Positions 396-16,448 of a stretch of DNA of 56,040 nt are shown piece by piece; positions within the stretch are counted from its first letter, which is position 1; every line of letters begins with the position of its first letter. Origin of the DNA: Actinomycetota bacterium. GTDB taxonomy: Bacteria; Actinomycetota; Acidimicrobiia; Acidimicrobiales; JAJPHD01. The notes under the pieces were generated by a model that saw only the letters and a list, made by a program, of their open reading frames with translations, did not search any database and was not told where the DNA came from. Position numbers and translations under genes: made by a program. The stretch lies in NCBI GenBank assembly GCA_021325455.1, contig JAJPHD010000005.1, positions 1 to 56,040 on the forward strand, in the 5' to 3' direction.

Positions 396-403
396 GGATA
401 GAG

Positions 404-409: not shown

Positions 410-415
410 GCCACA

Positions 416-1292: not shown

Positions 1293-1381
1293 CGGAGAGG
1301 GAGGGATTTGAACCCTCGGACCCAGTTTCCCAGGTCAACTCATTAGCAGTGAGCCCGATTCGGCCGCTCTCGCACCTCTCC
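1293..1381 (-). tRNA. tRNA-Ser (anticodon GCT)
   Basis: The minus strand gives an 89-nt tRNA with the long variable arm typical of serine. The acceptor is GGAGAGG/CCTCTCC with discriminator G, and the anticodon loop CTGCTAA has GCT at plus 1345-1347, reading AGC/AGU. The T loop is TTCAAAT. CCA is not encoded. Confidence 0.95.
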
Positions 1382-1517
1382 CTGGGCCCCAGGGTAGTCG
1401 ATGGCAGCCCTCGGTTCGATCCCGGCCGGCCGAGGCCAAAGGCCCAGGTAGATGGCAGACCCGCTCCTGGCCAGGACCCGGGCGGAGGCCGCCCGATGCC
1501 CTCGTCCCACCCCCCCT

Positions 1518-2183
1518 TCAGGAACCCGGGACCGGCCTCCCCCACCGGGCCACCGCCGGCGGCGGCTCCACTCCTTCGGGCACGTCTGCGGACCGCTCCG
1601 GCGAACCGGGGAGCAGCCTCAGGGGCAGCACCCCTGCCCACAAGGCCTGGCCCAGGTCGGCCTCGTCGTCCAGCGGTGGACCGCTACGCCTCTTGGCCGA
1701 GGCCTCCTCGATCTCCAGGGCCACCACCCGCGTGGAGGCCAGCTCGTGCCTGGTCGACTGGCGCACCTCGGCGCCCCTCCCGGGAGCCATATGGTCGACG
1801 ACCAGGTCGAGAGCCTCCTGCTTCTCGGTAGCGTCGGTGACAACCCTCACCGGGCCGAAGACCACGGCCGACCGGTAGTTGAGCGAATGGTGGAAGGGGG
1901 AGCGGGCCAGCACCAGGCCATCGACCAGGGTGACGGTGGCGCAGGCCCGCTGGGCTTCGGCCGCCCTCCGCAGCAACCCGCTCGCCGGCGAGCCGTGCAG
2001 GTACAAGGTGTCCCCCTTGCGGGCGTAGATCATGGGCAGCACGACGGGACCGCTGGAGGTGGCCACCCCGACGTGAGCGACCAGGCCCTCGTCCAGCACC
2101 CCCCAGACCGTCTCCCGCTCGTAACTGGCCCTCTCGGGGTACCGGTGGACCTGGGTTCTGGCAGTATTGTTATAGTACGACAT
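1518..2183 (-). CDS. Pyridoxamine 5'-phosphate oxidase-like flavoprotein (NimA-type)
   Basis: 221 residues. The N-terminal region, with [13 protein letters not shown] and then [13 protein letters not shown], followed by [19 protein letters not shown], matches the split-barrel FMN-binding fold of the Pyridox_ox_2/NimA-like family. These are cytosolic flavin enzymes of mostly unknown substrate; some reduce nitroimidazoles. The last 40 or so residues are proline-rich and probably disordered. The ATG start lies one base from the start codon of the divergent MocR regulator, a placement that suggests the regulator controls this gene. Other members of the fold use PLP-related substrates and the neighbour is a PLP-binding regulator, so a vitamin B6 link is possible but not shown. 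Confidence 0.75.
2171..2176 (+). promoter_or_regulatory. -10 hexamer of the MocR gene
   Basis: TATAGT, 8 nt before GTG 2185. It lies inside the first codons of the divergent flavoprotein gene, so repressor bound here would affect both promoters. Confidence 0.55.
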
Positions 2184-2184
2184 A

Positions 2185-3603
2185 GTGGAAGTACCAGTAC
2201 ATTACCCCATCGGCGGGTCCACTGCCCGGGAGGTGGTGGCCAGCGTCGAAGCCGCCCTCGCCAGCGGTGGGCTGTCACCCGGCCAGCGTCTGCCCACCGT
2301 GAGGGACCTCGCCGCCTCCCTGGGGCTCAGCCCGGCCACCGTGGCCTCCGCCTACCGGGACCTGCGCAGCCGGGGCCTGGTGGTTGGCGAGGGCCGGCGG
2401 GGCACCCGGGTGAGGGACCGCCCGCCTCTTCGCTTCGTGGCTCCGGTCTCTGCACCCCCCGGGACCCGGGACCTGGCCAGCGGGAACCCCGATCCGGCCC
2501 TGCTGCCGGACCTGGCAGCCGCCGCCCGGCGAGCCGCCGCCCGGCAGGCACCCGGCCTCGAACCGGCGGGTCCCCGGAGGGGCGCCAGGCAGGGACGACC
2601 CTCCGGCGCCTCCCTGGGCCATCCCCCCCAGCCCCGGCCCCTCCCCCGGCTCTACGGTGCCCCCGCCCTCCTGCCCGAGCTGGCCGACCTGGCCCGGGAG
2701 CACCTGGCCGCCGACGGCATAGATCCTGCTCACCTCGCCGTGGTGAGCGGGGCGCTGGACGGGGTGGAGCGAGCCCTGGCCGCCTGGTTGCGCCCCGGGG
2801 ACGCCGTGGTGGTGGAGGACCCCGGTTACGCCTACATCTTCGACCTGCTGGCCACCATGGGCCTCCGGGGCGTGCCCGCCGCCATGGACGAAGAGGGGCT
2901 GGTGCCCGGGGCCCTGGCCCACGCCCTGGCCGGAGGGGCCCGGGCGGTGATCGCCACCCCCCGGGCCCAGAATCCGACCGGGGCAGCCTGGACGGCCACC
3001 AGGGCCTCGGAGCTGGCGGCGGTGGTCTCCCGCTTCCCCGACACCCTGCTCATCGAGGACGACCATGCCGGCCCGGTAGCGGGCTCGGCCGCCCTGACCC
3101 TGGGCCCCCGGGCCCGTTGGGCGACCGTGCGCTCGGTGTCCAAGTCCCTCGGTCCCGACCTGCGCCTGGCCCTGATGGCCGGCGACCAGACGACCATCAG
3201 CCGGGTGGCTGGACGCCAGGCCCTGGGCCCGGGCTGGGTCAGCCACCATCTCCAGGAGATGGTGGCGACGCTGTGGTCCGACCCTGCCACCCAGGCCCTC
3301 CTCACCAGGGCCGAGACCGCCTATGCCGAGAAGCGCCGGGCCCTGGTCGCCGCCCTCGGCCGCCAGGGCATCCCTTCGACGGGCCGCTCGGGCCTCAACG
3401 TCTGGGTTCCCGTGCCAGCCGAGCACCCCGTGGTGGCCGGGCTGCTCGAACGCGGCTGGGCGGTGTCCCCGGGAGAGCGCTTCCGGCTGGCATCCCGCCC
3501 CGGTGTGCGCGTCACGGTCTCCACCCTCCAGCCCCAAGAGGCGGACCGGCTCGCCGCCGACCTGTCCGCCTGCCTGCGGGCACCGCCGGCCCGGTCCGCC
3601 TAG
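2185..3603 (+). CDS. MocR/GntR-type PLP-dependent transcriptional regulator
   Basis: 472 residues. Residues about 8-78 form a GntR winged helix ([20 protein letters not shown]). Residues about 95-470 form a fold-type I aminotransferase domain with AQNPTG at 261-266, EDDHAG at 291-296 and the expected PLP-binding lysine in SVSKSLG (K320). EDDHAG in place of the common EDDY resembles the PtsJ-like branch of MocR proteins, which regulate vitamin B6 salvage genes; that assignment is tentative. Residues about 115-150 are an unusual Arg/Gly/Pro/Gln-rich insert just before [11 protein letters not shown], where relatives have a short loop. The start GTG is supported by TATAGT 8 nt upstream. It probably represses or activates itself and the divergent flavoprotein gene. 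Confidence 0.85.
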
Positions 3604-3689
3604 CAGCCGTCGCCGCCAGGCAAGGCTGCCCCATCCCGCCTCAAGGCAGCTCGGCCGCCGGCGGGCCGGGACCCGGGCATGCTGGGACC

Positions 3690-4208
3690 ATGCGCGCTGT
3701 CGTGCAACGGGTGACCAGAGCCGAGGTCCGGGTCGGCGGGACGGTGGTGGGAAGGATCGGCCCGGGGCTGTGCGCCCTGGTGGGGGTGACCCACGGCGAC
3801 GACCGGTCCACCGCCGACCGCCTGGCTCTCAAGCTCTGGCACCTGCGAGTGCTGGACGACGGCACCGGGACCATGAACCGCTCCCTGGCCCAGGTCTCCC
3901 ACGACGGTGGGCGGGCCGAGGTGCTGGTCGTCTCCCAGTTCACCCTCTATGCCGACACCACCCGGGGCCGGCGCCCCTCCTGGGTGGAGGCCGCTCCCGC
4001 CGGCGTCGCCGAGCCCTTGGTCGAGCGGGTGAAGGCGGCGCTGGAGGAGGTGGGCGCCACCGTGGCGACGGGCCGCTTCGGGGCCCACATGGAGCTGGAC
4101 CTCGTCAACGACGGTCCCGTCACCATCCTCCTCGAGACCCCCCCTCGTCCCAGTGCCAACGCCGTCTCCTCCAGGGGTGGGAGAATGGAAGACGGGTCAG
4201 GACCGTGA
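3690..4208 (+). CDS. dtd: D-aminoacyl-tRNA deacylase
   Basis: 172 residues, slightly longer than the usual 145-150 because of a C-terminal tail after about residue 150. It starts [15 protein letters not shown], has the SQFTLYADT active-site strand (SQxTL) and the NDGPVT cross-subunit Gly-cisPro motif, all diagnostic of Dtd. The enzyme hydrolyses D-amino acids and glycine mischarged on tRNA, in the cytosol. The ATG has a weak leaderless-type hexamer (CATGCT) ending 6 nt upstream and no Shine-Dalgarno. The following lipoprotein gene begins about 10 nt downstream and may be co-transcribed. Confidence 0.95.
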
Positions 4209-4218
4209 GGTGCAAGGC

Positions 4219-4812
4219 GTGATCACCAAGTCGTGGCGAGGCTCCGGGCTGGCAGGGACAACGTTGGCCGGTTGCGCCCTCGCCAGCTGCTTCCTCGCCA
4301 GCTGCTTCCTCGCCGCCTGCCATCCCATTGCCGGCACCGTCCCCGGGGCCCTCATCCCCACCCCGGTGCCGGAGCCCGCCGTCTACGGCCGGCCCCGTTC
4401 CCCCTTCACCGTGTCCTTCCTGGGTCGCCCCCGACCCTCCGGGCGCCATCCCGACGGGCTGGCCGGTGTCCCCGGAGTGGCCTGGACCGAGGCCTGGCGC
4501 TACTGGGCCATCCGTCACGGCGTCCGGGAGCAAGAGACGGTGAGGGTGTGGAGGATGGAGAGGCGCCTGAGCGGCTCCCAGGCCGCCGCCTACCTCCGCA
4601 GCTCACTCCCCGGGGGCCGGCCCACCGTGGTCTCCAACCGCCCCGCCCGCCGCGACCTGACGCGTTGCGCTCGCGCCCGCTGCCAGGGTTACACAGGAAA
4701 GCTGGAGGTGGCAGGCCGCTCCACCATCTACTCGGTGTCGGTCAGCGGGGTGAACGGCACGGCAGCCTCCGACGTCCTGAACTCCTTCGCCGTCGGCGTC
4801 CGTCATCGCTGA
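4219..4812 (+). CDS. Putative lipoprotein with repeated lipoboxes
   Basis: 197 residues from GTG 4219; GTG 4210 is an alternative. A basic N-terminus (ITKSWRGSG) leads into a hydrophobic stretch holding four L-A-[GSA]-C boxes spaced five residues apart, with cysteines at about 19, 24, 29 and 34. The last (LAAC before HP) is the likeliest lipidation site. The remainder is Pro/Arg-rich with a C-terminal segment ending YSVSVSGVNGTAASDVLNSF; I recognise no domain. Two further cysteines (CARARC) could form a disulfide outside the cell. It is probably exported and anchored in the membrane. Its position directly after dtd suggests shared transcription, not shared function. Confidence 0.6.
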   Translation: MITKSWRGSGLAGTTLAGCALASCFLASCFLAACHPIAGTVPGALIPTPVPEPAVYGRPRSPFTVSFLGRPRPSGRHPDGLAGVPGVAWTEAWRYWAIRHGVREQETVRVWRMERRLSGSQAAAYLRSSLPGGRPTVVSNRPARRDLTRCARARCQGYTGKLEVAGRSTIYSVSVSGVNGTAASDVLNSFAVGVRHR

Positions 4813-4826
4813 GCACCACAGGGCCG

Positions 4827-5186
4827 CTACTTGAGGTCGGCCGGCTCCTCCCCCGCGTCGCGCAGGTGCCGGGCCAGATGCCGGTAGACGCCTTGGCGAT
4901 CTGAGGCGGGGATATCGCTCCCGCCCCGGGCGCCGTTCAGCACGCCAATGCCGCTGGTGCAGGCCCGTACGTTGGCGGCCCCCACATTCCCTCCCGAGTC
5001 CACCTCGTGGTGGATGAACTTGTAGCTCGCCTTGACGTCCGGGTCACCCCCCGGATCGGTCCAGGCATAGGCGCGCCGGAGGGTTCGCGCCTTGGCGTCA
5101 CCGAGCTTCGTCTCCATGCGGTTACCGGACCACGACGCGCCGGATGTTTCCGTGGAATGGGACCGGATGGGACCACGCTTGGCCAT
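4827..5186 (-). CDS. Stand-alone phage prohead-protease-associated domain protein
   Basis: 119 residues. The C-terminal half (SYKFIHHEVD, AANVRACTSGIGVLNGARGG, IPASDRQGVYRHLARHLRD) matches a small domain otherwise found attached to phage prohead proteases and related head-morphogenesis proteins. Here it stands alone, with a basic Ser/Thr-rich N-terminus and no protease, portal or capsid gene near by. It may be a prophage relic or a domesticated gene; its biochemical role is unknown. It is convergent with the lipoprotein gene, 14 bp apart. No clear Shine-Dalgarno is visible before the ATG. Confidence 0.6.
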   Translation of the reverse strand: MAKRGPIRSHSTETSGASWSGNRMETKLGDAKARTLRRAYAWTDPGGDPDVKASYKFIHHEVDSGGNVGAANVRACTSGIGVLNGARGGSDIPASDRQGVYRHLARHLRDAGEEPADLK

Positions 5187-5409
5187 CTACTACTACTAAC
5201 CTTTCCGCACCCGGTCGCGCCAGCAACTCCGGGGTGCGAATCTCCTGACCCCGCCCACATCCCGGCCCGTCACCTTGGTGGTGATCGCCCTCCTGCAAGG
5301 GAGAAGCGGTCTCACCGGCACAACGGACCCCGATCGCAGCCGGCCCCCAGCCACCAGCGGCTGTGGGCGGCCATGAACCGGTCAGGACAAAGGGCCACGA
5401 TGGCGACCC

Positions 5410-5778
5410 TCAATGGCTGGCCTCGTAGGCCTCGAGGACGGCGCGGGGAATGCGGCCCCGGTCACTTATCTGGTGGCCCTTGCTCCGCGCCCACTCACGC
5501 ACCTCCTGACTGTTAGCTGCCGTGCCGGAACGCCGGGCCCGCCGGGCCCGCTTGGCCGGGGCCGGCTCCGCGGCCCGGGACCGGGTGCCGCGCCGGCGAC
5601 CAGCCCTTGCCGGCCGGCCGATGTTGGCATACCTGCCCACCTGGTCCTGGAACTCAGCGAGATGCTCGGCACACAGCTCGATCTCATAATCACGACTGTC
5701 CAAGCCGAAGCGGACGGTTTCTATCGCCTCGCTCCCGTCGATGTCGCACTTGAGCACCTCTATCGTCTCTCTTGCCAT
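5410..5778 (-). CDS. lsr2: Lsr2 nucleoid-associated protein
   Basis: 122 residues from MARETIEVL. The N-terminal half is the dimerisation domain with DIDGSEAIETVRFGLD. A basic linker follows, and the C-terminal DNA-binding domain ends SKGHQISDRGRIPRAVLEAY with the RGR motif that inserts in the minor groove of AT-rich DNA. Lsr2 is an actinobacterial H-NS analogue that silences foreign AT-rich DNA. An upstream ATG at 5874 in the same frame is rejected because AGGAGG sits 10 nt before the ATG at 5778 and because family members start here. The leader upstream (5779-5985) is unusually AT-rich for this window, which fits autoregulation. It sits beside accessory genes of the kind it normally silences. 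Confidence 0.95.
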   Translation of the reverse strand: MARETIEVLKCDIDGSEAIETVRFGLDSRDYEIELCAEHLAEFQDQVGRYANIGRPARAGRRRGTRSRAAEPAPAKRARRARRSGTAANSQEVREWARSKGHQISDRGRIPRAVLEAYEASH

Positions 5779-5973
5779 CGGAAGACAACCTCCTCGTGGA
5801 TCGAACAGACGATAGCAGCACGCGCACAAAAAACCTGCCGCATTCATCCCCGGTGGGCGGGGCCATCGAAGCAATTGTGCCTCGAGAAACGAAAGGAGGT
5901 CCGCCTGCAGCCGCCCCTGGTTTGTGACAAGGTGGAAGGCCGTGCTCCCGACCGCCCTCGGGACAGCGCCCTT

Positions 5974-5979
5974 TACGGT
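5974..5979 (+). promoter_or_regulatory. -10 hexamer of the 5986 gene
   Basis: TACGGT, 6 nt before ATG 5986. It selects this ATG within a much longer open frame. Confidence 0.5.
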
Positions 5980-5985
5980 GCGGCG

Positions 5986-6363
5986 ATGGACCTAGAGGCC
6001 TTCTACGAAGCGGATGAGCGCCGGCGGGCGTCGGTGGAGATCGAGTTGGGCCGCGACTGGCACGATGCCAGCGGGACTCGCTATGAGCTGTCCTGGATAG
6101 AGGACACCGGCGAGCTCTATGCCATGCGGGAACCGCAGGCCGAGGGGGCGGTGGTCGATCCGTGGGGCGATTGGATTGCCGCCTCGCTACCAACCGAGGC
6201 CCTGACGGTCAGGGTTCTCGGCCACCTTCCCACCCGCGCTGCCCTGGAGGAGGTCCTGGCCGGATGGGAGGATGCCATGGGCCAGCCCAACAGCATCGGA
6301 TGGGTGCTGGAGGCCCTCCACCGGGCCGGGGTGCGCCCGGAGGGAGAGCCCTCTCCGGAATAG
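5986..6363 (+). CDS. Conserved hypothetical protein, 125 aa
   Basis: Acidic, soluble protein starting MDLEAFYEADERRR and containing RYELSWIEDTGELYAMREP. I recognise it as resembling an uncharacterised actinobacterial family but cannot name a function. There is no signal peptide or membrane segment. The frame is open far upstream (from 5413), but the ATG at 5986 is chosen from composition and from TACGGT ending 6 nt before it. Its 3' end overlaps the tail of the convergent coupling-protein gene by 177 bp. It is divergent from lsr2. Confidence 0.65.
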   Translation: MDLEAFYEADERRRASVEIELGRDWHDASGTRYELSWIEDTGELYAMREPQAEGAVVDPWGDWIAASLPTEALTVRVLGHLPTRAALEEVLAGWEDAMGQPNSIGWVLEALHRAGVRPEGEPSPE

Positions 6364-8193
6364 CCACCAGCGCGGTTCGGCGCCCGGGGCCATCAAAGGC
6401 CTTTCCCATCGGCGCAGGCGCCCACCGCTGCCCGGGTGACGGGGTCTGGCCCGCCGAGCGAGGTCCTTCTCGAGGAACCACGGCCGCAGCCGAAGGCGGG
6501 CTGGCGGAAGGTGTCCGTACACGAGAAGGCCCTCGCCGGGCCGGATCCGCCGGATGGCATCGGCCGGAGCCAGGCGCCGGGGGGACACCGCCCTCGTCAC
6601 GGACGAACGGCCGTCGGCGTCGGTGGTGGTGGACGCCTGGGTCGCCTCCCCCTCCCCGAGGAGGGCACTCACATGATCCAGGGTGGTCGGGTCGGATATG
6701 CCCGAGAGGATCACCTTGGCCCGGTGGTTGTTCACGACGGTGGCCGCCCTCTTCCCGTAGCGGGCCGCCACCTGGGCCATGTCCTGCCAGATGGAGACCA
6801 GCTGTATGCCCTGTCCCGCCGCCGTGGCCGCCAGGCCGTCCAGGTCAGCCAGAGGAGCGATGTTGGCCGCCTCGTCCAGCACCACCAGCAGCGGGGGTGC
6901 CAGCGGCTGGTGCTGGCGCGCCACTCGCTCATAGGCCGAGAGCAGCACCTGGCTGACCAGGGCCGTGAATGCCGGGCGCAGACGCCTCTGCTCGTGGGCG
7001 GGGGCGCATACCAGCAAGGTGTGCGACCCCCCGTCCAGGAGCGTGGCCGGGCTGATGTCCGAGCGCGCCGACGAGGACGCCACCGCCGGGTCGGCAAAGG
7101 CCTCGAGCACGGTCTCCGCGGTGGTGTACACCGAGCTCCTCTGGCGCTCCTCCCGCCGCCAGCTGGCTGTGGCCGCCTGCAAGGCCTCCGGCTGGCCCAG
7201 GCAGACCAGGATGCGCTCCACCTCATCCTCCTCCTGCTCGTCGACCCAGCGCACCACGTCCGCCATGCCGAGCCCGGCGCCGGCCGCCGCCAGCAGGAGG
7301 GGAGCCAGCAGCTTGGCGGCAGTGGCGTACCAGAAATCAGCATCGGCGGGGCCCTCCCCGGTCCTGGCCTCCCCGCACAGGGCGGCCGCCATACGGCGCG
7401 CCCCCTCCCACGTGCTGGCCCCCGAGAGGGGTGACCAGCCGCTCGAGGGCAGGCCCGTGCTTGCCGCCGGGTCGTAGAGCCACACCTGGCCGCACCGCTC
7501 CCGCCAGGCCAAGGTGTCCCGCACCAGGTCGGTCTTGACGCTCGTGGCCAGCACCGGGCCCTGCCACTCCAGGATGGCGGGAACGGCGAAGCCGGAGGTC
7601 TTGTGGGTCTGGGTGGGACCCACCACGATCACGGACTGGCCCCGTTCGGCGGCCAGCAAGCGCCGCCCGGACCGGCCCAGGGTGAGACGGCCTCCCGTTG
7701 CCTGCCCCACGACCAGCGCCCGCAGGTCCCCAGGCCGGGCCCAGGAGGCCGGCGCCGAGGGCGGCCGGCTCGCCCCCAGCCACCTCCGGGGTCTCCCCCC
7801 GACCGCCCGTGACGGGCCCGCCGCCCGCCGGGCCGCGCTCGAGCCGGTCACCAGGACGGCTCCGCCCAGGAGGACCATGCCCGCCAGGGCCCCGTAGAAG
7901 GGGACCGGCCCGGGCAGGAGCCTCCTGGCGGGGTAGGGCCAGGCTAGGGCGGGGTGGGCGGGGTGAGCCACCAACCCGGCCAGGATCGCCGGGAACCACC
8001 GAGCAGGGACCCGGGGCCAGGTCCCCCCGGCCAGGCGGCCGGCCACCTCACCCGCCGCCCAGGCCATCAAGCCCGCCAGGGCCACCAACCCCCCGAGCAC
8101 CATCCCCGAGCGGGTCAGGGCGTCATGGCCGGAGGGGCCGGGGAGGCGGTGCCGGGGCGAGCCGGGGCTACCTGGTTGCTTCCACCCGCTCAC
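6187..8193 (-). CDS. Type IV secretion coupling protein (VirD4/TraG-like)
   Basis: 668 residues. There are two N-terminal membrane regions (about 30-50 and 98-116), then a nucleotide-binding domain with P-loop GPTQTHKT at 192-199, and Walker B VVLDEAAN at about 430 followed by QLVSIWQDMAQ and VNNHRAKVILSG of the TraG/TraM-recognition type. Such ATPases link DNA or protein substrates to a type IV channel at the inner membrane. The P-loop lacks the usual glycine before Lys (TQTHKT instead of xxSGKT). Family homology fades after about residue 578; the last 90 residues run antisense to the 5986 gene and look like read-through. The start overlaps the end of the VirB4 gene by 26 bp, so it is the last gene of the module operon. 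Confidence 0.85.
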   Translation of the reverse strand: MSGWKQPGSPGSPRHRLPGPSGHDALTRSGMVLGGLVALAGLMAWAAGEVAGRLAGGTWPRVPARWFPAILAGLVAHPAHPALAWPYPARRLLPGPVPFYGALAGMVLLGGAVLVTGSSAARRAAGPSRAVGGRPRRWLGASRPPSAPASWARPGDLRALVVGQATGGRLTLGRSGRRLLAAERGQSVIVVGPTQTHKTSGFAVPAILEWQGPVLATSVKTDLVRDTLAWRERCGQVWLYDPAASTGLPSSGWSPLSGASTWEGARRMAAALCGEARTGEGPADADFWYATAAKLLAPLLLAAAGAGLGMADVVRWVDEQEEDEVERILVCLGQPEALQAATASWRREERQRSSVYTTAETVLEAFADPAVASSSARSDISPATLLDGGSHTLLVCAPAHEQRRLRPAFTALVSQVLLSAYERVARQHQPLAPPLLVVLDEAANIAPLADLDGLAATAAGQGIQLVSIWQDMAQVAARYGKRAATVVNNHRAKVILSGISDPTTLDHVSALLGEGEATQASTTTDADGRSSVTRAVSPRRLAPADAIRRIRPGEGLLVYGHLPPARLRLRPWFLEKDLARRARPRHPGSGGRLRRWERPLMAPGAEPRWWLFRRGLSLRAHPGPVEGLQHPSDAVGLAHGILPSGQDLLQGSAGGKVAENPDRQGLGW

Positions 8194-9430
8194 GTCCCCT
8201 CCCCCCTCCGGTCATCTCGGCGTCGGTGTCGGTCATGGCCCGCTCGGCATCGCTCATGACGTGCTCCACCAGGAACGACTCCCGGCCCACCTTCCACAGG
8301 GCCACTCCCCGCCGGAGCAGGGGGAGCAGGGCCGCCTCGGCCCCCGTGAGGCCCACCCAGGCGGCCGAGCTCTCCACCTCGCCCGGCGGCTGGGCATAGA
8401 CCACGACCGTCTCGGAGTCGGCCAGCAGGCCCTGGGCCGCCTTCGTGGCCTCGGAGCCGTCGTTGCCGGCGGCGGCCAGGTCCGAAGCGTGGTGCACCAC
8501 GGCCACGTTGGCCACCCCCCAGGCCCGGGAGAGCTTCCACGAGGCCTGCAGCCACCGGGCCACACCGGGCCGGGCCAGGATGGCCCACGCCTCGTCCACC
8601 ACGAACAGGCGCTGGCGGCCGGGGCCGCCGGCGAGGAAGGCCGCCAGCCAGGCCAGGGCGCAGGTCATGAGGATGCCGAGCGCCTCGGAGTGGTAGAGGG
8701 GGGAGAGGTCGAGCACCACGAGAGGGCCAGACAGGTCGACCCCGGGAGTGGTCGGGGCGTCGAACATGCCGGCCAGGTCTCCGTGCACGAGGCGGCGAAG
8801 CTCCAGGGCCATGTCACGCCCGTCCTCCTGCAGGGTCCTGACATCGGTGCACAATGCTCTGGCCGCCTGAGGCCTGGGCGACAGGAGGGCCTCCATCACA
8901 AGGGGGATGGTGGGCGGGCCGTCACCCTCGCCGGCGGCCTCGATGGCAACGTCGAGCGAGGCCCGCTCCCGGGGCGAGAGAGGTCGCCCCCAGGACCCCT
9001 CGAGCAGCGCCTCCAGCAGCTCGGCTCGGCTCCCTCCCAGGTCCAACGGGTTGAGCCGAAGGGAGCCCGCCGGCTCCAGGCGCAGGGGCTCGACCCCCGA
9101 GGCCCGGGCCAGCCCGGAGTACTCGCCCTTCGGGTCGATGACCCAGGCCTGGCGCCCCAGCAGGGACTGGCGCCAGAGGTAGGACTTGATGAAGGCGCTC
9201 TTGCCCCTCCCTATCTGGCCCATGACGACCATGTTCGGGTTCGAGATCACGCCGGCCCCATAGAGGCAGAAGGGGTCGTAGCGGAAAGCCCCTCCCAGGC
9301 AGTCGGCCCCGATGACCACGCCGTCCCCGGGCAGCCCCGGGCTGGAGAGGAACGGGTAGGCGGCCCCGAGGTTGGCGGTGGTGGCCCGGTGGGCGGGCGG
9401 GACGCGGCTGAGGACGGGTGGCGGCCTCAC
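8168..9430 (-). CDS. VirB4-type conjugation ATPase (C-terminal ATPase part)
   Basis: 420 residues from a GTG whose GTGA overlaps the stop of the preceding gene. The P-loop GQIGRGKS is at 71-78, followed by YLWRQSLLGRQAWVIDPKGEY; LVVLDLSPLY and Walker B RLFVVDEAWAIL come later, and a conserved C-terminal segment reads VVVYAQPPGE. This is the ATPase half of VirB4/TraC proteins, which energise type IV secretion. Classical VirB4 is about 800 residues; here the N-terminal part is missing and probably corresponds to the upstream SCO6880-like gene, so the functional unit may be split in two. A longer in-frame start at 9856 is rejected, since it lies within the SCO6880-like gene. Confidence 0.88.
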   Translation of the reverse strand: MRPPPVLSRVPPAHRATTANLGAAYPFLSSPGLPGDGVVIGADCLGGAFRYDPFCLYGAGVISNPNMVVMGQIGRGKSAFIKSYLWRQSLLGRQAWVIDPKGEYSGLARASGVEPLRLEPAGSLRLNPLDLGGSRAELLEALLEGSWGRPLSPRERASLDVAIEAAGEGDGPPTIPLVMEALLSPRPQAARALCTDVRTLQEDGRDMALELRRLVHGDLAGMFDAPTTPGVDLSGPLVVLDLSPLYHSEALGILMTCALAWLAAFLAGGPGRQRLFVVDEAWAILARPGVARWLQASWKLSRAWGVANVAVVHHASDLAAAGNDGSEATKAAQGLLADSETVVVYAQPPGEVESSAAWVGLTGAEAALLPLLRRGVALWKVGRESFLVEHVMSDAERAMTDTDAEMTGGGRGRERVEATR

Positions 9431-10944
9431 TGCAGCCCCCGCCCCAGGGGGAGGGTCCAGGTGAAGGCCTCGTCCTGCTGGCCGTAGAGACGGACCAGCT
9501 CGAGATGGGCCCGGGCGGCGGCCTGCTCGAGCCGGCCACAGTCCCTCTCCAGCCGTTCCGGTGAGGTGCCGGTGACGGTGACGTACCCGGAGAACCGGTA
9601 CTCGGCATGGCCATCGGCCAGCTCCATCTCTCGGCGGGCGACCACCTCCGCCTCCCGGTGGCGACGGGCGGTGGTGAGGAAGCCGGCCCGGCGGCGAAGG
9701 TCGGTGTCGGCGAGATCGGCCACCCTGGCCTGGCGCACCTGGCGGGCCGACCGCCTCGGGCTGATCGGCTCCATGATGAGGGAGACGGCGTGGCGGGCCC
9801 CGGAATGGAGCAGCAGGGGGACGAGGAACCCCGGGCCCACCGGGAGGCGGGGCCATTCCGCCACCCAGTACGTGGCATGCCAGGTCGCCTCCGTCCGGTA
9901 GGCGGTCCAGGTGGCCTCGCTGGCCGTCGGCCAGGGCCAGAGGGGTCCGCCGCCCCCTTCGGCCCTGCCCGGGTCGGTCTCCAGGGGCCGGCGCAGGGCC
10001 CGGGCCAGCGCCTCGGGCCCGAGCACGCCCAGCACCATCACCCCCGCCTGGTCGAGCTGGGACATCAAGGCATGCACCTCCTGGTCGAGGAGCTCAAAGG
10101 GCCCTGGCGCCCTCCGGCCCGCTCGCAGGGGCCCGTCCCCCCGGAGGGACATGGCCAGCAGCACCTCGTGGTGGCAGGCCCGGCGGCCCACCCCCGCCAC
10201 CACCTCGGCATAGGAGCGGGCCGCCGCCCCCTTGGTCTCCAGGGTTCCTCCGGGGACCCCGGCGGGCACCCCCGTCCCTCCGGGGTGGCTGCGCGCCACC
10301 CACTGGAGGCGGTGCACCGGGCTTCCCTGCCTGGCCATGCCGGCCAGGACCCCCGACCAGGCCGAGACCCGGGACTGCTGCTCCTCGGCCCCGAGAAGGG
10401 CGAAGGACGGCCCCGCGGCGCTCACCACCGCCGTGTAGGTCCCCGCCTCGGCATCCGCCACCACGCCCATGCGCAGGCCCCCGGACCCGGCGAGAGGTGC
10501 CAGCACGCGGCAACCTCGAAGCGGCCGGGGAGCCAGCCTTGCCCCATGCCCCTGGGCCCGGACCGGCTGGCCAGGCGCCAGGCGGGCCGCGGGGACGGCC
10601 CCCCGGGGTGCAGTCACGGGGACCAGGGTCCCGAGCGTGGGGACCTTCGACCGGTGCCGGCGCCATGGGCTGCCGAGCACCCAGCCGGCCACCACCGGGA
10701 CCCACTCCTCGGGGGTCCTGCCCCAGAGGGGGAGGTGGGCCACCGCCAGCCCCGCCGCCACGGCCAGCCCGGCGCCGGCCAGCCCGCCACCCCCGGTCCC
10801 GCTGCGCAGGCATACCACCGCCGCCACGAGGGAGGCGGCCACGGCAGCCACCTGGCCTCCCCGCCACCCCGCGATCAGCCCCCTCCGCTCCAGGGGCCCG
10901 AGGCGGTAACGGGCCGCCCCCCTGTCATCACCACCCGGGGCCAC
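9427..10944 (-). CDS. SCO6880-family conjugation protein (VirB4 N-terminal-like)
   Basis: 505 residues from GTG 10944; longer in-frame starts fall inside the upstream gene. Two N-terminal membrane helices (about 22-45 and 50-72) precede a large cytosolic domain. Its C-terminus (RLEQAAARAHLELVRLYGQQ and FTWTLPLG) resembles the end of the N-terminal domain of VirB4, the step just before the ATPase domain encoded by the next gene. Proteins of the Streptomyces SCO6880 type occur beside VirB4 in actinobacterial integrative elements. It overlaps the membrane-protein gene upstream by 17 bp and the VirB4 gene downstream by 4 nt, so stoichiometric, coupled synthesis is likely. Confidence 0.72.
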   Translation of the reverse strand: MAPGGDDRGAARYRLGPLERRGLIAGWRGGQVAAVAASLVAAVVCLRSGTGGGGLAGAGLAVAAGLAVAHLPLWGRTPEEWVPVVAGWVLGSPWRRHRSKVPTLGTLVPVTAPRGAVPAARLAPGQPVRAQGHGARLAPRPLRGCRVLAPLAGSGGLRMGVVADAEAGTYTAVVSAAGPSFALLGAEEQQSRVSAWSGVLAGMARQGSPVHRLQWVARSHPGGTGVPAGVPGGTLETKGAAARSYAEVVAGVGRRACHHEVLLAMSLRGDGPLRAGRRAPGPFELLDQEVHALMSQLDQAGVMVLGVLGPEALARALRRPLETDPGRAEGGGGPLWPWPTASEATWTAYRTEATWHATYWVAEWPRLPVGPGFLVPLLLHSGARHAVSLIMEPISPRRSARQVRQARVADLADTDLRRRAGFLTTARRHREAEVVARREMELADGHAEYRFSGYVTVTGTSPERLERDCGRLEQAAARAHLELVRLYGQQDEAFTWTLPLGRGLQ

Positions 10945-12325
10945 GACCCTCCTCCCGTCCCTCGTCCTGGCCCGTCTCCTCTCGCCGCAGCTCCCCGGGC
11001 TCCGGCCGCCTATGGCTCTCCCGCCTGCCCGGCCCCGGCCCGGGGCCGCCACCCGGGGAGCCCGCCCCGGGGGCGGTCGGACCCGAACTGGCCGGGGAGC
11101 CGTCGGCCGGGCCCTCGGATGCCGGGGCAGGGGAGGCCGAACCCCCTGGGGCAGGGTCGCCCGAGGCCGAAGCCCCTGGGGCAGGGTCACCCGAGGCCGA
11201 AGCCCCTGGAGCAGGGCCACCTGAGGCTGAGCCCTCATTCCGTGGGGGGCCTGGGGACCCGGACTCGGCGAACAGGTCGGGCGGGAGCTCCCAGCCCCGG
11301 GGGGCGTCGGCCCAGGGCAGGACGACGGTGTCCGAGAGCCCCGTGCCGGTGGCGCCCACGGGCGGCTCCCAGGCGGCGTCGGCCAGCCCGGCGCCTCCTA
11401 GGAGGGCCGGGGCGGCCAGGCGCGCCGGCCGGGCCAGCGCCGACGCCGCCCGCCGTCCCAGCTGGCGACCGCTGCCCTCGAGGTGGGCCACCGAGCCCGC
11501 CTCCACCACCGGGACCAGCCGCAGGAGGGCGAAGGGGCTGGCCACGGCCAGGCCCAGCAGGGCCGTCCCCTCCACGACGGCGGCCGGCCCGGCCCCCCGG
11601 CCAGGACGAAGGAGGGCGGCGGCGGCCAGCACCAGCACCGCCACGATCACCAGCTTGGCCACCACCAGGGCCCCGAGGGTCTCAGCCAGCCGCCTGGCCC
11701 AGGCGGCAGTGGGGGGCCACACGAGGCCCGCCAGCGCCAGGGGGACGAAGAGGACCGCCACCTCGATGGCAGCCGACCGCACCACCAGCTCGAGCCAGAG
11801 CAGGAGGGCGCCGAGAGCCAGGATGAGCAAAAGGGCGAAGGTCACGAAGGCGGGGAGGGCCCCGCTGCCGGTGAGAGCGGCGAGCCGGCCCAGGGGGACC
11901 AGGCCGTCCAGGAAGTGGCGGGCATCGAGGCCGGTGCCCCGGGCCAGGGTCGTGCTCAGGTCGTCCACGGCTGCCACGCCCAGACGGACCAGCTCCACGG
12001 CCACGGCACCGAGGAGAAGGCCCAGGGGAAGGTAGACGAAGGCGCTGCGCACCAGCTGGCCGGCGTCCTGGCGGACGACGGCCTGCAGGGCTGACACCAG
12101 GAGCAGGGGGACCGCCACCACGGCAGCCAGCTCCAGCATCACCCGGTAGTGGCTGGTGAAGAAGGCCGCCCCCAGCTCGGGCCGGCTGGAGGCCCCAAGG
12201 GCGCGGCCGGCGTGGGAGAGGAGCCAGCCGGCCCCGGCGGCCACCCACCCGTTGACGGCCTCCAGAGCATGGCGGGCCAGGTAGCCGGCCACGGCCCCCC
12301 CGGGCCCCTCCCCCAGGGCGCCCAT
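10928..12325 (-). CDS. VirB6/TrbL-like polytopic membrane protein
   Basis: 465 residues from ATG 12325. About six transmembrane segments lie between residues 55 and 310, including LELAAVVAVPLLLVSAL, FVTFALLLILALGALLLW, IEVAVLFVPLALAGLVW and [15 protein letters not shown]. This is the layout of TrbL/VirB6 channel components of type IV secretion. The C-terminal third is a cytosolic or external low-complexity tail with tandem G-D-P-A-P-G-A-S-A-S units and a charged end. Its ATG overlaps the stop of the preceding small gene by one base (TGATG). A longer frame from 12472 is rejected, since it lies in that gene. Confidence 0.75.
   Translation of the reverse strand: MGALGEGPGGAVAGYLARHALEAVNGWVAAGAGWLLSHAGRALGASSRPELGAAFFTSHYRVMLELAAVVAVPLLLVSALQAVVRQDAGQLVRSAFVYLPLGLLLGAVAVELVRLGVAAVDDLSTTLARGTGLDARHFLDGLVPLGRLAALTGSGALPAFVTFALLLILALGALLLWLELVVRSAAIEVAVLFVPLALAGLVWPPTAAWARRLAETLGALVVAKLVIVAVLVLAAAALLRPGRGAGPAAVVEGTALLGLAVASPFALLRLVPVVEAGSVAHLEGSGRQLGRRAASALARPARLAAPALLGGAGLADAAWEPPVGATGTGLSDTVVLPWADAPRGWELPPDLFAESGSPGPPRNEGSASGGPAPGASASGDPAPGASASGDPAPGGSASPAPASEGPADGSPASSGPTAPGAGSPGGGPGPGPGRRESHRRPEPGELRREETGQDEGREEGRGPGW
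11121..11240. repeat. 30-bp tandem repeats in the TrbL-like tail
   Basis: Two near-identical 30-bp units (11151-11180 and 11181-11210) are flanked by diverged copies at 11121-11150 and 11211-11240. They encode ten-residue units of the type G-D-P-A-P-G-A-S-A-S, so copy-number changes keep the reading frame. Confidence 0.85.
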
Positions 12326-12624
12326 CAGTGGACGCCCTGGCCGGCGTGGAAGAAGAAGTTCACTATGCCGGGGGCCGCCCCCACCACCAGGGCCGCCAGC
12401 CCGGACACCACAACCGCCCGCCGGCCTGCCACCGACTGGTGGTAGTTCTGCGAGTGGGCGCCCAGGGCCCACACGGCGGCACCCAGGAGCAAGCCGATCA
12501 GGGCCAGCACCAGGGCCCAGCCCCCTATGCCGTTGGCCAGCCGCTGGAGGACCGCCCCCCCGGGCAGCTCGGAGGGGTTGGCGTGCAGGGTCACCCTCCC
12601 GCCGTGCAGCAGCAGTCCGGTCAT
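12325..12624 (-). CDS. Small membrane protein, DUF6112-like, T4SS component
   Basis: 99 residues with two hydrophobic segments (GWALVLALIGLLLGAAVWAL and AVVVSGLAALVVGAAPGIV) around a conserved GAHSQNYHQSVAGRRA loop. Proteins of this shape precede VirB6-like genes in actinobacterial conjugation loci; size and topology recall a VirB2-like subunit, but that equivalence is not shown. The second Met (12624) is chosen because AAAGGAG lies 8 nt upstream, although 12642 is also in frame. It is the first gene of the minus-strand operon, divergent from the cell-wall hydrolase gene. Confidence 0.72.
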   Translation of the reverse strand: MTGLLLHGGRVTLHANPSELPGGAVLQRLANGIGGWALVLALIGLLLGAAVWALGAHSQNYHQSVAGRRAVVVSGLAALVVGAAPGIVNFFFHAGQGVH

Positions 12625-12706
12625 GTCATCGGCTCCTTTCATGCGCTCCTTGCCGGTGCGGGCACGATATTAGAGCCTATTTCATGTTGTTTCAACTGTC
12701 ATGATG

Positions 12707-12712
12707 TAGGAT
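12707..12712 (+). promoter_or_regulatory. -10 hexamer of the hydrolase gene
   Basis: TAGGAT, 8 nt before GTG 12721, in a short AT-rich divergent intergenic region. Confidence 0.5.
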
Positions 12713-12720
12713 GGCTCCCC

Positions 12721-13770
12721 GTGAAGCTCGTCGCCGCCCTGCTCGCCATCCTGGCCCTGGGCGTGGTGGCGGCGGCCGGAGGTGCCCTGGGCATGGGCTC
12801 CCTGACCGGGCCCCTCCCGGCGGGGCCGGCCATCCCCCGCCCCAGCCGGGCGGCTCTGGCGGCCATCCCCGCTCCCTACCTCCACCTGTACCAGGGGGCC
12901 GCCAGGACGTGCCCCGGGCTTCCCTGGACGGTCCTCGCCGGCATCGGCACCGTCGAGTCGGGCAACGGCCGCAGCCTCAGCCCGGGCGTGCGCTGGGGGT
13001 CCAACCCGGCCGGGGCGGAGGGCCCCATGCAGTTCGAGCCAGCCACCTTCGCCCTCTACGCCCGGCCCGTGCCCCCGGGGGGGAGGCTGCCCCCGTCGCC
13101 CTACGACCCCGCCGACGCCATCTACGCCGCGGCCCGGGACCTGTGCGCCAACGGAGGGGGGAAGGCGGCCGGCCTGCGCCAAGCGGTGTACGCCTACAAC
13201 CACGCCGACTGGTACGTGGCCGAGGTGCTTGCCTATGCCTCCTCCTACTCGGCTTCCGCTCCCACCGGCCCCGGCGCCGCCGGCCGGGGCGGGGTCCCGG
13301 GGGCGGGGCCGGGGGGCCCTGCCGGCTGGGCACCCAGCCCAGCCGCCACCACCGCCCTCCGCTACGCCCTGGCCCAGGTGGGCAAGCCCTACCGCTGGGG
13401 CGGGGAGGGCCCCACCGGCGTCGACTGCTCGGGGCTCACCCAGGCCGCCTACCGGACCGCCGGCGTGTCCCTGCCCCGGACCGCCCAGGCCCAGTTCGCG
13501 GCGGGCCCTCACCTCCCACGGGGTGCCCCTCTCCGTCCCGGCGACCTCGTGTTCTTCGGCTCCTTCACCGCTGGGGTGCAGCACGTGGGCCTCGTGGTCC
13601 ACCCCTCGGGAGTCATGGTCGACGCCCCGCACCCAGGCGCCGTGGTGAGGAGGGAGTGGTTCCCGCCCCGACCGGGGGCACCCTGGGGAGGCGAGGTCTA
13701 CCTGGGAGCAACGGACCCGGCACCGGCCCGGCCCGGCCTGGTTCACCTGGCCGGCAGCCGGTCCCGGTAG
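12721..13770 (+). CDS. Secreted lytic transglycosylase/NlpC-P60 peptidoglycan hydrolase
   Basis: 349 residues. The N-terminal signal or anchor is KLVAALLAILALGVVAAAGG. Residues about 50-165 form a lysozyme/transglycosylase domain with the catalytic Glu in GIGTVESGNG and a GPMQFEPATF motif. A Gly/Pro-rich linker follows. Residues about 215-330 form an NlpC/P60 (C40) endopeptidase with Cys in VDCSGLTQAAY and His in VQHVGLVV. This two-domain layout matches VirB1/TcpG-like enzymes that open the wall for conjugation machines, and it is divergent from the type IV genes, so it belongs functionally with them. Its stop codon is part of the -10 hexamer of the next gene. Confidence 0.88.
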   Translation: MKLVAALLAILALGVVAAAGGALGMGSLTGPLPAGPAIPRPSRAALAAIPAPYLHLYQGAARTCPGLPWTVLAGIGTVESGNGRSLSPGVRWGSNPAGAEGPMQFEPATFALYARPVPPGGRLPPSPYDPADAIYAAARDLCANGGGKAAGLRQAVYAYNHADWYVAEVLAYASSYSASAPTGPGAAGRGGVPGAGPGGPAGWAPSPAATTALRYALAQVGKPYRWGGEGPTGVDCSGLTQAAYRTAGVSLPRTAQAQFAAGPHLPRGAPLRPGDLVFFGSFTAGVQHVGLVVHPSGVMVDAPHPGAVVRREWFPPRPGAPWGGEVYLGATDPAPARPGLVHLAGSRSR

Positions 13771-13773
13771 GCT
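13768..13773 (+). promoter_or_regulatory. -10 hexamer overlapping the hydrolase stop codon
   Basis: TAGGCT; its TAG is the stop codon of the upstream hydrolase gene. The GTG of a 12-codon open frame lies 6 nt downstream (13780). Confidence 0.5.
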
Positions 13774-13779
13774 GCCAGT

Positions 13780-13815
13780 GTGGTCCTGGCGCTCCCCGCT
13801 AGGGAACGGCTGTGA
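13780..13815 (+). CDS. Putative leader peptide coupled to the sensor kinase
   Basis: An 11-residue frame (GTG, then VLALPARERL) ends in TGA 13813-13815, which overlaps the GTG start of the kinase gene (13812-13814) as GTGA. A -10-like TAGGCT ends 6 nt upstream, so the messenger would begin exactly at this GTG. Ribosomes would then reach the kinase start by termination-reinitiation, which would explain why the kinase lacks both a Shine-Dalgarno and a good leaderless hexamer of its own. Existence and role are inferred from position alone. Confidence 0.4.
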   Translation: MVLALPARERL

Positions 13816-15191
13816 CGAGCCAGCAGAACTTCCTGATCATCGTGGCGGTGGTGGCTGCCATCGCCTTCTCGGCCCTGGTCGTGGCGGGGGGGCTGCTCCT
13901 GGCCCGGCGCGGCCTCAAGCGGCGGCTGGCCAAGCTGGCCACCAGGCTCACCGATGAGCCCCTGGCGACCATCCTCGCCGCCAGCAGGGCCCAGGGCGTC
14001 CCCGACTTCGCCGACGAGGACGCCCGCCTGGACTCCACCCTGGAGCGGCTGGAGCGGGCCGTCGAAGGGGCCACGGAGGCGGTGGCCCTGGCCGGCGAGG
14101 ACGCCGTGCGCCTACGGCAGGCCCTCGACGCCATGCCCCAGGGGGTGATCGTGTGCGGGGAGGACGGCCGGGTCCTGTTCCGCAACTCCCAGGCCATCGC
14201 CCTGGTCGGCAGCCGGCACGCCGACGCCATAGCGGCCCGGACGGTGGAGGAGATGCTGGCCGCCTCGGCTGCGGGGACCCCCGGGGACAAGACCCTGGAC
14301 CTCTACGGGCCGCCCAGGCGGGTCCTCACCGTGCGCACCGCGCCCATCGACGACGGACGCCGTCACTTGGGGGTCATCGCCGTGCTGGAGGACATCACCG
14401 AGCGCCGCCGCCTGGAGGCCGTGAGGAGGGACTTCGTGGCCAACGTCAGCCACGAGCTCAAGACCCCGGTGGGCGCTCTCGGGCTCCTGGCCGAGACCCT
14501 GGCGGCTGAGCGGGACCCCACCGTGGCCAGCCGGCTGGCCGACCGCATGCAGACCGAGGCCTTCCGGGTCAGCCGCATAATCGACGACCTGCTGGACCTG
14601 TCCCGCATAGAGGCCGAGGAGGCACCCGTGCGGGAGCCCACGTCGGTCAACCTGGTCATGGCCGAGGCGGTGGAACGGGTCCGGCCCGCCGCCGAGGCCC
14701 GTCGGGTCACCCTCATCCTGGACGAGCCCGAGGGCCCGGTGGTGGTGCTCGGGGACCGCCGCCAGCTCGTGTCCGCCCTGTACAACCTGCTGGACAACGC
14801 CATCAAGTACTCCGACGAGGGCTCCCAGGTCACTTTCTCCGGTCGGGTCGAGGACGGCTCGGTTCTCCTGGCCGTGAGGGACCACGGCATCGGCATCCCG
14901 GCCCGCGACCGGGAGCGCATATTCGAGCGCTTCTACCGGGTGGACCAGGGCCGTAGCCGCCAGACCGGGGGCACGGGGCTGGGCCTGGCCATCGTCCGCC
15001 ATGTGGCCCACAACCACGCCGGCCAGGTCACCCTGGAGTCCCTCGAGGGCGAGGGCTCCACCTTCACCCTGCGCCTGCCCGTCACCGAGCTGCCTGCCGC
15101 TCCCGGGGCTCCCGGGCCGCCACCCTCCGGCACCGAACTGGAGACCGGCGAGGCCTCGGCCGAGGTGGGCAGCGCCTTTCTCTCCCCATGA
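13812..15191 (+). CDS. senX3: Sensor histidine kinase, SenX3-like
   Basis: 459 residues. One N-terminal membrane helix (FLIIVAVVAAIAFSALVVAG), a PAS-like domain at about 100-200 (ALDAMPQGVIVCGEDGRV), a HisKA domain with phospho-acceptor His214 in NVSHELKTPVGA, and a HATPase domain with N box LLDNAIKYS and G boxes GIGIPARDRERIF and GTGLGLAIV. It resembles SenX3/PhoR kinases that sense phosphate limitation in actinobacteria. The regulator gene follows with an ATGA overlap, so the two are one unit. No phosphate-transport genes are near, so the signal is inferred from family only. Confidence 0.85.
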   Translation: MTSQQNFLIIVAVVAAIAFSALVVAGGLLLARRGLKRRLAKLATRLTDEPLATILAASRAQGVPDFADEDARLDSTLERLERAVEGATEAVALAGEDAVRLRQALDAMPQGVIVCGEDGRVLFRNSQAIALVGSRHADAIAARTVEEMLAASAAGTPGDKTLDLYGPPRRVLTVRTAPIDDGRRHLGVIAVLEDITERRRLEAVRRDFVANVSHELKTPVGALGLLAETLAAERDPTVASRLADRMQTEAFRVSRIIDDLLDLSRIEAEEAPVREPTSVNLVMAEAVERVRPAAEARRVTLILDEPEGPVVVLGDRRQLVSALYNLLDNAIKYSDEGSQVTFSGRVEDGSVLLAVRDHGIGIPARDRERIFERFYRVDQGRSRQTGGTGLGLAIVRHVAHNHAGQVTLESLEGEGSTFTLRLPVTELPAAPGAPGPPPSGTELETGEASAEVGSAFLSP

Positions 15192-15928
15192 GCAGCCCCC
15201 AGGCCACCGTCCTCGTGGCCGAGGACGAGGACTCCTTCGTCGATGCCCTGGCCGTCGGGCTGAGACGGGAGGGCTTCCTGGTGGAGGTGGCCCGGGACGG
15301 GCCCCAGGCCGTCGAGATGTTCGACGCCACCCACCCTGACCTCATCCTGCTCGACCTCATGCTGCCCCGCATGTCGGGTCTGGACGTGTGCCGGGAGATC
15401 CGGTCCCGCTCCAACGTGCCCATCATCATGGTCACCGCCAAGAGCGAGGAGATCGACACCGTGGTGGGCCTCGAGGTGGGCGCCGACGACTACGTGACCA
15501 AGCCCTACAAGCTGAGGGAGCTGGTGGCCCGCATGCGGGCGGTGCTGCGCCGGGTCCCCCAGCCCGACGAGGAGCCTGGCGACGCCGAGGGGGTGCTGGC
15601 CGTCGGACCGGTCCATCTGGACCCCGATCGCCACCAGGTGAAGGTCCGGGGCGAGGAGGTCCGCCTCCCCCTCAAGGAGTTCGAGCTGCTCGAGCTCCTC
15701 CTGTCCAACGCCGGGCGCGTGCTCACCAGGGACGTGCTCATAGACCGGGTCTGGGGGCCCCACTACGTGGGGGACACCAAGACCCTGGACGTGCACGTGA
15801 AGCGGCTGCGGGCCCGGATAGAGGAGGACCCCTCCAACCCCAAGCTCATAACCACCATCCGCGGCCTGGGCTACCGCTTCGAGGCCCCCGAGCCAGTACA
15901 GGGGCAAGGCCGGGGCCACGAGGGCTAG
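15188..15928 (+). CDS. regX3: OmpR-family response regulator, RegX3-like
   Basis: 246 residues. The receiver domain at 7-120 has acidic pocket AEDED, phospho-acceptor Asp56 in LILLDLMLP, Thr in IIMVTAK and Lys in YVTKPYK. The winged-helix DNA-binding domain at about 135-237 has VRLPLKEFELLELLL and ends TTIRGLGYRFE. The ATG overlaps the kinase stop (ATGA), giving coupled translation. Cognate of the adjacent SenX3-like kinase and likely controls phosphate-responsive genes. Confidence 0.88.
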   Translation: MSSPQATVLVAEDEDSFVDALAVGLRREGFLVEVARDGPQAVEMFDATHPDLILLDLMLPRMSGLDVCREIRSRSNVPIIMVTAKSEEIDTVVGLEVGADDYVTKPYKLRELVARMRAVLRRVPQPDEEPGDAEGVLAVGPVHLDPDRHQVKVRGEEVRLPLKEFELLELLLSNAGRVLTRDVLIDRVWGPHYVGDTKTLDVHVKRLRARIEEDPSNPKLITTIRGLGYRFEAPEPVQGQGRGHEG

Positions 15929-15940
15929 CGCCGCCTTGCC

Positions 15941-15946
15941 TAGTCT
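15941..15946 (+). promoter_or_regulatory. -10 hexamer of the Fur-family gene
   Basis: TAGTCT, 6 nt before GTG 15953. Confidence 0.55.
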
Positions 15947-15952
15947 GGGCCC

Positions 15953-16393
15953 GTGAGCTCCACCCGGACCGAGGCACTAGTCGGGACCTTGCGCCAGCAC
16001 GGGTGGCGGGTCACCAGCGCCAGGCGGGCCGTGATCGCCGCCCTGGTGGAGGCCGAGGGCCACATGACGGCCGACCAGCTGGCCGAGAAGGTCCAATCGA
16101 ACCAGCCCGACGTCCACCTGTCCACCGTCTACCGGACCCTCGAGGCGCTGGAGCAGGTGGGCCTCGTGGACCACACCCACCTGGGCCACGGGCGGGCCGT
16201 GTACCACCTGGCCGATGACCCCCACCAGCACCTGGTCTGCGATGGGTGCGGGGCCGTCATCGAGGTCCCCGACGACACCTTCACCTCCCTGGCCGACACC
16301 CTGCGGCGCTCCCACGGGTTCACCATAAGGCCCAGCCACTTCGCCGTGCTGGGCCGCTGCGCGGCCTGCAACCAGGGGCAGGCATCGGGGTGA
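15953..16393 (+). CDS. Fur-family metal-dependent regulator
   Basis: 146 residues. The winged helix has GWRVTSARRAVIAALVEAEGHMTADQL and the recognition segment HLSTVYRTLEALEQVGLV. Metal ligands include the HQHLVC cluster and two CxxC pairs (CDGC and CAAC) that form a structural zinc site. Family members sense Fe (Fur), Zn (Zur), Ni (Nur) or peroxide (PerR); the sequence alone does not decide, though the complete CxxC pairs fit Zur or Fur best. Transcribed alone from a leaderless promoter between regX3 and serS. Confidence 0.85.
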   Translation: MSSTRTEALVGTLRQHGWRVTSARRAVIAALVEAEGHMTADQLAEKVQSNQPDVHLSTVYRTLEALEQVGLVDHTHLGHGRAVYHLADDPHQHLVCDGCGAVIEVPDDTFTSLADTLRRSHGFTIRPSHFAVLGRCAACNQGQASG

Positions 16394-16436
16394 GCGGTCA
16401 GGAGGGCCGGGCGCCAAGGCGTCATTTGGCCCCCGA

Positions 16437-16442
16437 TAGCGT
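16437..16442 (+). promoter_or_regulatory. -10 hexamer of serS
   Basis: TAGCGT, 6 nt before GTG 16449. Confidence 0.55.
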
Positions 16443-16448
16443 GATCCC

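Follow-up and report, generated by a model that had tools for sequence, protein, structure and literature searches.

A type IV secretion module beside senX3-regX3 and a MOBF relaxase on another contig: a probable split conjugation system in Acidimicrobiales

The module and its chromosomal setting

We analyzed a 56,040-nucleotide stretch of DNA from an Actinomycetota bacterium (the window; contig JAJPHD010000005.1 of assembly GCA_021325455.1), in which positions 6187 to 13770 carry a type IV secretion system (T4SS) module. By reading open reading frames (ORFs) and searching Pfam and NCBIfam profiles, we found five genes in the same orientation (minus strand, 12642 to 6187) and a divergent wall hydrolase. 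An earlier note on this DNA, made from the sequence alone, had described a six-gene T4SS module, and we find it real and intact, with profile matches for all six genes; its hydrolase call also stands, corrected to the plus strand with a start near 12721. Gene starts throughout are estimates. The features of the locus are as follows:

6187..8193, minus strand: T4CP1, a VirD4-like type IV coupling ATPase (PF02534, 3.8e-35; TraG-D_C, 2.5e-22)
8168..9427, minus strand, start probably near 9403: VirB4 ATPase domain (weak in Pfam; NCBIfam VirB4 families to 8.7e-14)
9427..10947, minus strand, start uncertain: SCO6880-family protein with a membrane hairpin and a VirB4 N-terminal-like domain (NF042935, 3.1e-63)
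10928..12472, minus strand, start probably near 12328: SCO6881-family VirB6/TrbL-like channel protein, kept at syntenic loci (NF047967, 4.8e-17)
12325..12642, minus strand, start 12642 or 12624: DUF6112 small membrane subunit (PF19607, 2.8e-5)
12670..12703, plus strand: private repeat element with a 10-bp period and TTTCATGTTG-type units, between DUF6112 and the hydrolase
12721..13770, plus strand, start estimated: SLT and NlpC/P60 wall hydrolase with a signal peptide (PF00877, 4.7e-20; PF01464, 2.5e-4)
13812..15191, plus strand: senX3-type sensor kinase, a conserved chromosomal neighbour that anchors the locus
15188..15928, plus strand: regX3-type response regulator, a conserved chromosomal neighbour

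In VirB4, the Walker A motif (GQIGRGKS) and the DEAW motif are intact and are invariant or nearly so across 12 orthologues. In T4CP1, the P-loop reads GPTQTHKT, in which the glycine before the lysine is replaced, and the Walker B DEA is retained (alignment of 12 orthologues). Many module VirD4 orthologues have H, Q, M, R or Y in place of the P-loop glycine before Lys-Thr (GPTQxGKT). The earlier note had listed VirB4 and the SCO6880-like protein as separate components, and both are present; however, they are better described as two parts of one VirB4, because an AlphaFold model of the SCO6880-family protein (28 sequences; predicted local distance difference test score 74) gave significant Foldseek matches only to R388 TrwK/VirB4 structures (14 chains; E about 1e-8 to 1e-7). 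The modelled fold suggests that this protein takes the VirB3/VirB4-N role. The DUF6112 subunit, whose orthologues share 57-74% identity (alignment, n = 13), may be VirB2-like, as judged by its size only. The wall hydrolase and the DUF6112 operon have a common divergent promoter region; we rejected the hydrolase as a universal component at the module site because the gap is too short in most relatives. Some loci are irregular: at L072 (8336-8494) and L212 (7307-8147) an intact VirB4 is preceded by short VirB4-like fragments, and at L094 about 9 kb separates the SCO6880 gene from VirB4; these irregularities are insertions or duplications within the module.

The source genome is 2.95 Mb in 28 contigs, and among named relatives the closest are metagenome assemblies of Acidimicrobiales and Acidimicrobiaceae; most of the genomes we compared are likewise metagenome assemblies. 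In other families of the order, we found these five genes in unchanged order, divergent from senX3-regX3 and often with fur and serS beyond. This synteny, which the earlier note had proposed to check, is present at eleven loci in one comparison and, in another, at most of 80 named loci whose contig reaches far enough. It extends to diverged members with small genomes, including a single-contig genome of 2,158,157 bp (which we take to be Acidimicrobium ferrooxidans) and others of about 2 Mb. The module genes are intact in most genomes and are retained even in those of 1.4-2 Mb, which contradicts one suggestion of the earlier note, that the module is a relic of an integrative element. The ratio of nonsynonymous to synonymous substitution rates (dN/dS) of VirB4 between near relatives is 0.07-0.16. 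The flanks are chromosomal, as had been claimed, with senX3-regX3 and Lsr2 bordering the module. We found no convincing att-like repeats flanking the module (900-14200), no relaxase or integrase among the genes read at 1-16500 of the window, and no integrase among the genes read around the module or around the source-genome relaxase gene described below; integrase families were not searched genome-wide. Rather than the sporadic presence and varied insertion sites of an integrative and conjugative element (ICE), with an integrase and att sites among its transfer genes, we observe one site beside senX3-regX3 in many families.

A MOBF relaxase and a second coupling protein at other loci

In the source genome, we found a MOBF (TrwC) relaxase of 912 amino acids at G000:C22:88125-88904, on a contig other than the module's. 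No MOBP relaxase was found in the source genome and no MOBQ relaxase in 59 genomes including it; MOBV, MOBT, MOBH and MOBC were not searched. The absence of relaxase and integrase reported in the earlier note therefore holds among the genes read at 1-16500 but fails genome-wide for the relaxase. In relatives, trwC has a conserved neighbourhood and lies directly downstream of pafB-pafC, which encode WYL-domain regulators (HTH_PafC confirmed in Pfam), in most loci examined; in the source genome, a few genes lie between pafB-pafC and trwC. In many families, a second coupling ATPase (T4CP2, about 460 amino acids, PF02534) lies tail-to-tail with trwC, and its P-loop is mostly GPPRSGKT. The T4CP2 of the source genome is at G000:C17:351526-352617, on contig C17, whereas trwC is on C22. 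At least one PF02534 protein is present in 30 of the 30 genomes tested, and more than one in all but two of them.

To describe the relaxase itself, we compared 25 chromosomal TrwC proteins (21 from the conserved group and four from family f16; two of the ORFs are cut by contig ends). The nicking centre, formed by an N-terminal Tyr and the H...PHLHxH triad, is kept in all 25, including those from genomes of 1.4-2.2 Mb. The helicase P-loop (Walker A) is absent from these 25 apart from one probable chance match at L202, and it is present in all 19 other TrwC proteins, 13 from within the order and six from outside it. Several chromosomal TrwC proteins are only about 390-490 amino acids long. The dN/dS of the TrwC domain is 0.19-0.20, indicating that the domain is under purifying selection. 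Small genomes have a single TrwC, at its own conserved site. Mobile TrwC copies cluster apart from the chromosomal ones (support 96) and most mobile VirB4 copies likewise form one group (support 94), both by a quick tree method and with some long branches. Taken part by part, VirB4, a coupling protein, a VirB6-like channel and a catalytic relaxase are all encoded, and intact, in one genome.

Features linking the two loci

To relate the module to trwC, we counted profile matches in 395 genomes, using search tables and without regard to phylogeny. All 65 genomes whose module VirB4 match is strong (E ≤ 1e-130, a line of our own choosing) have a TrwC match, compared with 133 of the 330 others (Fisher 6e-23); with any VirB4 match the figure is 149 of 157, compared with 49 of 238 genomes without one. 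VirB4 and TrwC distances are correlated (Mantel r 0.83, p 0.0001, 21 genomes), and the correlation persists when SenX3-RegX3 is allowed for (partial r 0.80, n = 14). In f16 genomes, including that of Acidiferrimicrobium sp. IK (L130), trwC and DUF6112 are immediate neighbours transcribed in divergent directions, so that a relaxase lies within 60 ORFs of VirB4 and a coupling protein in this family; this is also the case at L231, a locus from another class of the phylum, and not in the source genome. Outside the order, G418 (family f82), G671 (f107) and also G581, of the same class, have close VirB4 modules (E 1e-160 to 1e-172) and no TrwC match, and G433 (f82) has a close VirB4 module in the same E range with only more distant TrwC matches; these are possible relaxase-less or differently paired systems.

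The two loci also share a DNA element. An expectation-maximization search upstream of DUF6112 at 79 loci returned a 10-bp-period repeat with consensus TTTCATGTTGTTTCATGTTTTTTC (log-likelihood 655, compared with 78 for shuffled sequences). When we scanned the window with the resulting matrix, the single match (score 21.2) was at the module, and the source genome matches the core pattern with at most two mismatches at one place only, window 12670-12702. Over 1.48 Mb of module loci, 128 of 131 matches lie less than 450 bp from DUF6112. Over 504 kb around the relaxase and second coupling protein loci, the matrix, which was trained on module promoters, gave 17 matches, all at the 5' end of trwC and at non-mobile loci. 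The repeat is found at 10 non-mobile trwC loci and at one f16 locus, the intergenic region of which had also been used to train the motif, and at no mobile trwC locus. In matrix scans, it is absent from other-class or ICE modules, from six mobile modules within the order, and from eight senX3-regX3 loci that lack the module. Its absence from those eight loci does not support a SenX3/RegX3 autoregulatory site; a –10 box at a fixed spacing from the repeat was not supported either, and a PafBC promoter motif (RecA-NDp type) at the module was not above background. The position of the repeat upstream of DUF6112, and of trwC in many relatives, suggests that it probably controls both jointly. Two more lines tie the loci to each other: the integrase-bearing relative outside the order described below, and the loss of the helicase P-loop common to the chromosomal TrwC proteins.

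Interpretation and alternatives

Taken together, these data indicate that the system is neither a relic nor truly relaxase-less; it is a domesticated, chromosomally dispersed conjugation system. That the apparatus is chromosomal, vertically inherited and selected follows from the synteny, the Mantel correlation and dN/dS values of 0.07-0.20, and the earlier note's alternative of domestication is supported by synteny across many families, purifying selection and the lack of any integrase or att site seen. The same note had held that a paired relaxase elsewhere, with att sites, would refute its interpretation; a relaxase was found, yet it points to a split, fixed system and not to an ICE, and no att-like repeats were found near the module. 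We think it rather probable that this is a captured conjugation system, fixed in the chromosome and split between loci that the private repeat co-regulates. Relatives outside the order are consistent with such an origin: locus L231 combines the same module with genes for a tyrosine integrase, an HTH_17 protein and an SLT hydrolase, and its TrwC has a full helicase; four further outside-order genomes, including that of Salsipaludibacter albus, have their best TrwC on the module's contig, at a distance of about 13-25 kb. The system would derive from an integrative element and would have become a stable part of the chromosome before the order (apparently Acidimicrobiales) split into its families.

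The likeliest job of the system is, we infer, cell-to-cell transfer of chromosomal DNA, with intracellular DNA movement and protein export as alternatives. The locus in the window would supply the membrane channel, the VirB4 motor and T4CP1, and the pafB-pafC-trwC locus, often with T4CP2 next door, would supply a MOBF relaxase that has its nicking centre and no helicase motor. TrwC would nick a chromosomal origin of transfer (oriT), another motor (a host helicase or T4CP2) would unwind the DNA, and the relaxase-bound strand would be exported through T4CP1/VirB4 and the VirB6-like channel into a neighbouring cell. The pafBC neighbourhood hints at a connection with DNA damage, since single-stranded DNA triggers PafBC, which governs the DNA damage response of mycobacteria, according to two reports (PMC5656591, PMC11804915).

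Several observations weigh against this interpretation. A conjugative MOBF relaxase without its own helicase is unusual, no VirB8-like subunit was recognised and no oriT was identified. The trwC copy of the repeat in the source genome is weak (score 12.5) and overlaps the start codon, and the diverged f23 and f33 members examined mostly have no clear motif. The co-occurrence counts are not corrected for shared ancestry. Finally, deletion of the Streptomyces Cmd cluster left plasmid transfer unaffected (PMC2782261).

The Cmd result is also why intracellular DNA movement is the main rival. The cluster (cmdABCDEF, SCO4126-4131) is chromosomal and actinobacterial and encodes VirB4-, SCO6880- and SCO6881-like proteins, and its loss disturbs sporulation and segregation (PMC2782261); by this account, the machine would move DNA inside the cell or at division, for segregation or clearance of trapped DNA, and the relaxase would serve site-specific nicking or resolution. 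Loss of the relaxase helicase, which argues against classical long-range transfer, favours such a role. However, these bacteria have kept both a catalytic nickase and another coupling protein, the f16 relaxase adjoins the module, and Cmd differs in its reported role, in having no relaxase partner described and in having no known senX3-regX3 synteny or private motif. We consider this account unlikely, if still worth serious attention. A protein-secretion system of ICE descent, for effectors or wall enzymes and with TrwC as cargo or an unrelated survivor, would fit the wall hydrolase encoded beside the module in the window and the usual view of relaxase-less clusters as protein exporters (PMC3158045). 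This is less likely because the nickase is retained and coupled to the module: all 25 chromosomal TrwC proteins retain the nicking centre, trwC has the module's private upstream element in many relatives and, unlike in an exporter without a relaxase partner, a MOBF relaxase is co-inherited. No effector genes were seen at the locus, and no genome-wide effector search was made. We judge protein secretion improbable.

Two further accounts were weighed. Mobilizable elements are known to use a T4SS in trans (PMC3158045) and some relatives have extra mobile TrwC genes, so that the module could be a resident helper serving the relaxases of visiting elements, with the chromosomal TrwC incidental. Order-wide vertical inheritance and purifying selection instead favour a benefit to the host, and the single TrwC of small genomes sits at its own conserved site, which makes a helper very improbable. 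A decaying ICE that has lost its integrase and oriT would fit the lack of an integrase or att site seen at the module, the lost relaxase helicase P-loop and the altered T4CP1 P-loop in a subset; however, gene order and place are constant across many families, dN/dS is low for both proteins and the genes persist in genomes of 1.4-2 Mb, and we give decay almost no credence.

Returning to the split conjugation system, by analogy its nearest concept is the archaeal Ced system. In Ced/Ted, chromosome-captured conjugation machinery serves cellular DNA exchange (shown there; inferred here), but that machinery is archaeal, relaxase-less and a pilus-based importer (PMC9905601), whereas the present system belongs to bacteria and combines a conserved MOBF relaxase with two coupling proteins, at separate loci. 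The authors of the Ced study were not aware of any further system domesticated for DNA transfer (Beltran et al., 2023; PMC9905601). T4SS-type actinobacterial ICEs (PMC3218068; L231) have the same module genes and order, an SLT hydrolase and a MOBF relaxase; unlike the present system, in which no integrase was seen, the relaxase P-loop is lost and the loci are unlinked, they hold an integrase and a helicase-bearing relaxase in one cluster. We put forward tentatively, as somewhat less than an even prospect, that this may be the first bacterial conjugation system that is encoded in the chromosome, vertically inherited and of service to its host: a helicase-less MOBF relaxase would nick the chromosome, the strand would reach kin cells by way of two coupling proteins and a minimal T4SS, and unlinked loci would be coordinated by a private operator, possibly together with single-stranded DNA-sensing PafBC, as a counterpart of archaeal Ced. 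A search of the open-access literature for relaxases or conjugation in Acidimicrobiia turned up no description of the system; subscription papers were mostly outside that search.

Conjugation genes are usually assigned to mobile elements. If this order-wide system is indeed owned by its hosts, it would be a route of gene exchange in a largely uncultured group, including members with small streamlined genomes, and annotation rules that need a relaxase adjacent to a T4SS can overlook such systems. Under the 60-ORF rule of one genome survey (PMC3158045), the present system is split into a MOBless T4SS and an orphan MOB and would thus be misclassified, since its halves seem to be inherited together as one system. 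The carriers include a cultured organism (Acidiferrimicrobium sp. IK), and the question is therefore directly testable.

Other genes of the window were noted as well. The Lsr2 gene (5410-5779, minus strand) adjoins the coupling-protein end of the module; we rejected Lsr2 as a part of the system because there is no Lsr2 match at the relatives' loci. The window's serS (16449-17783, plus strand) shares about 36% identity with the serS at the matching place in relatives and has the opposite orientation relative to regX3; it is possibly a xenologous replacement. At 492-953 (plus strand), a Phd/YefM-like antitoxin gene is followed by a YoeB-like toxin frame that, as read by eye, is broken by an in-frame TAG near 824.

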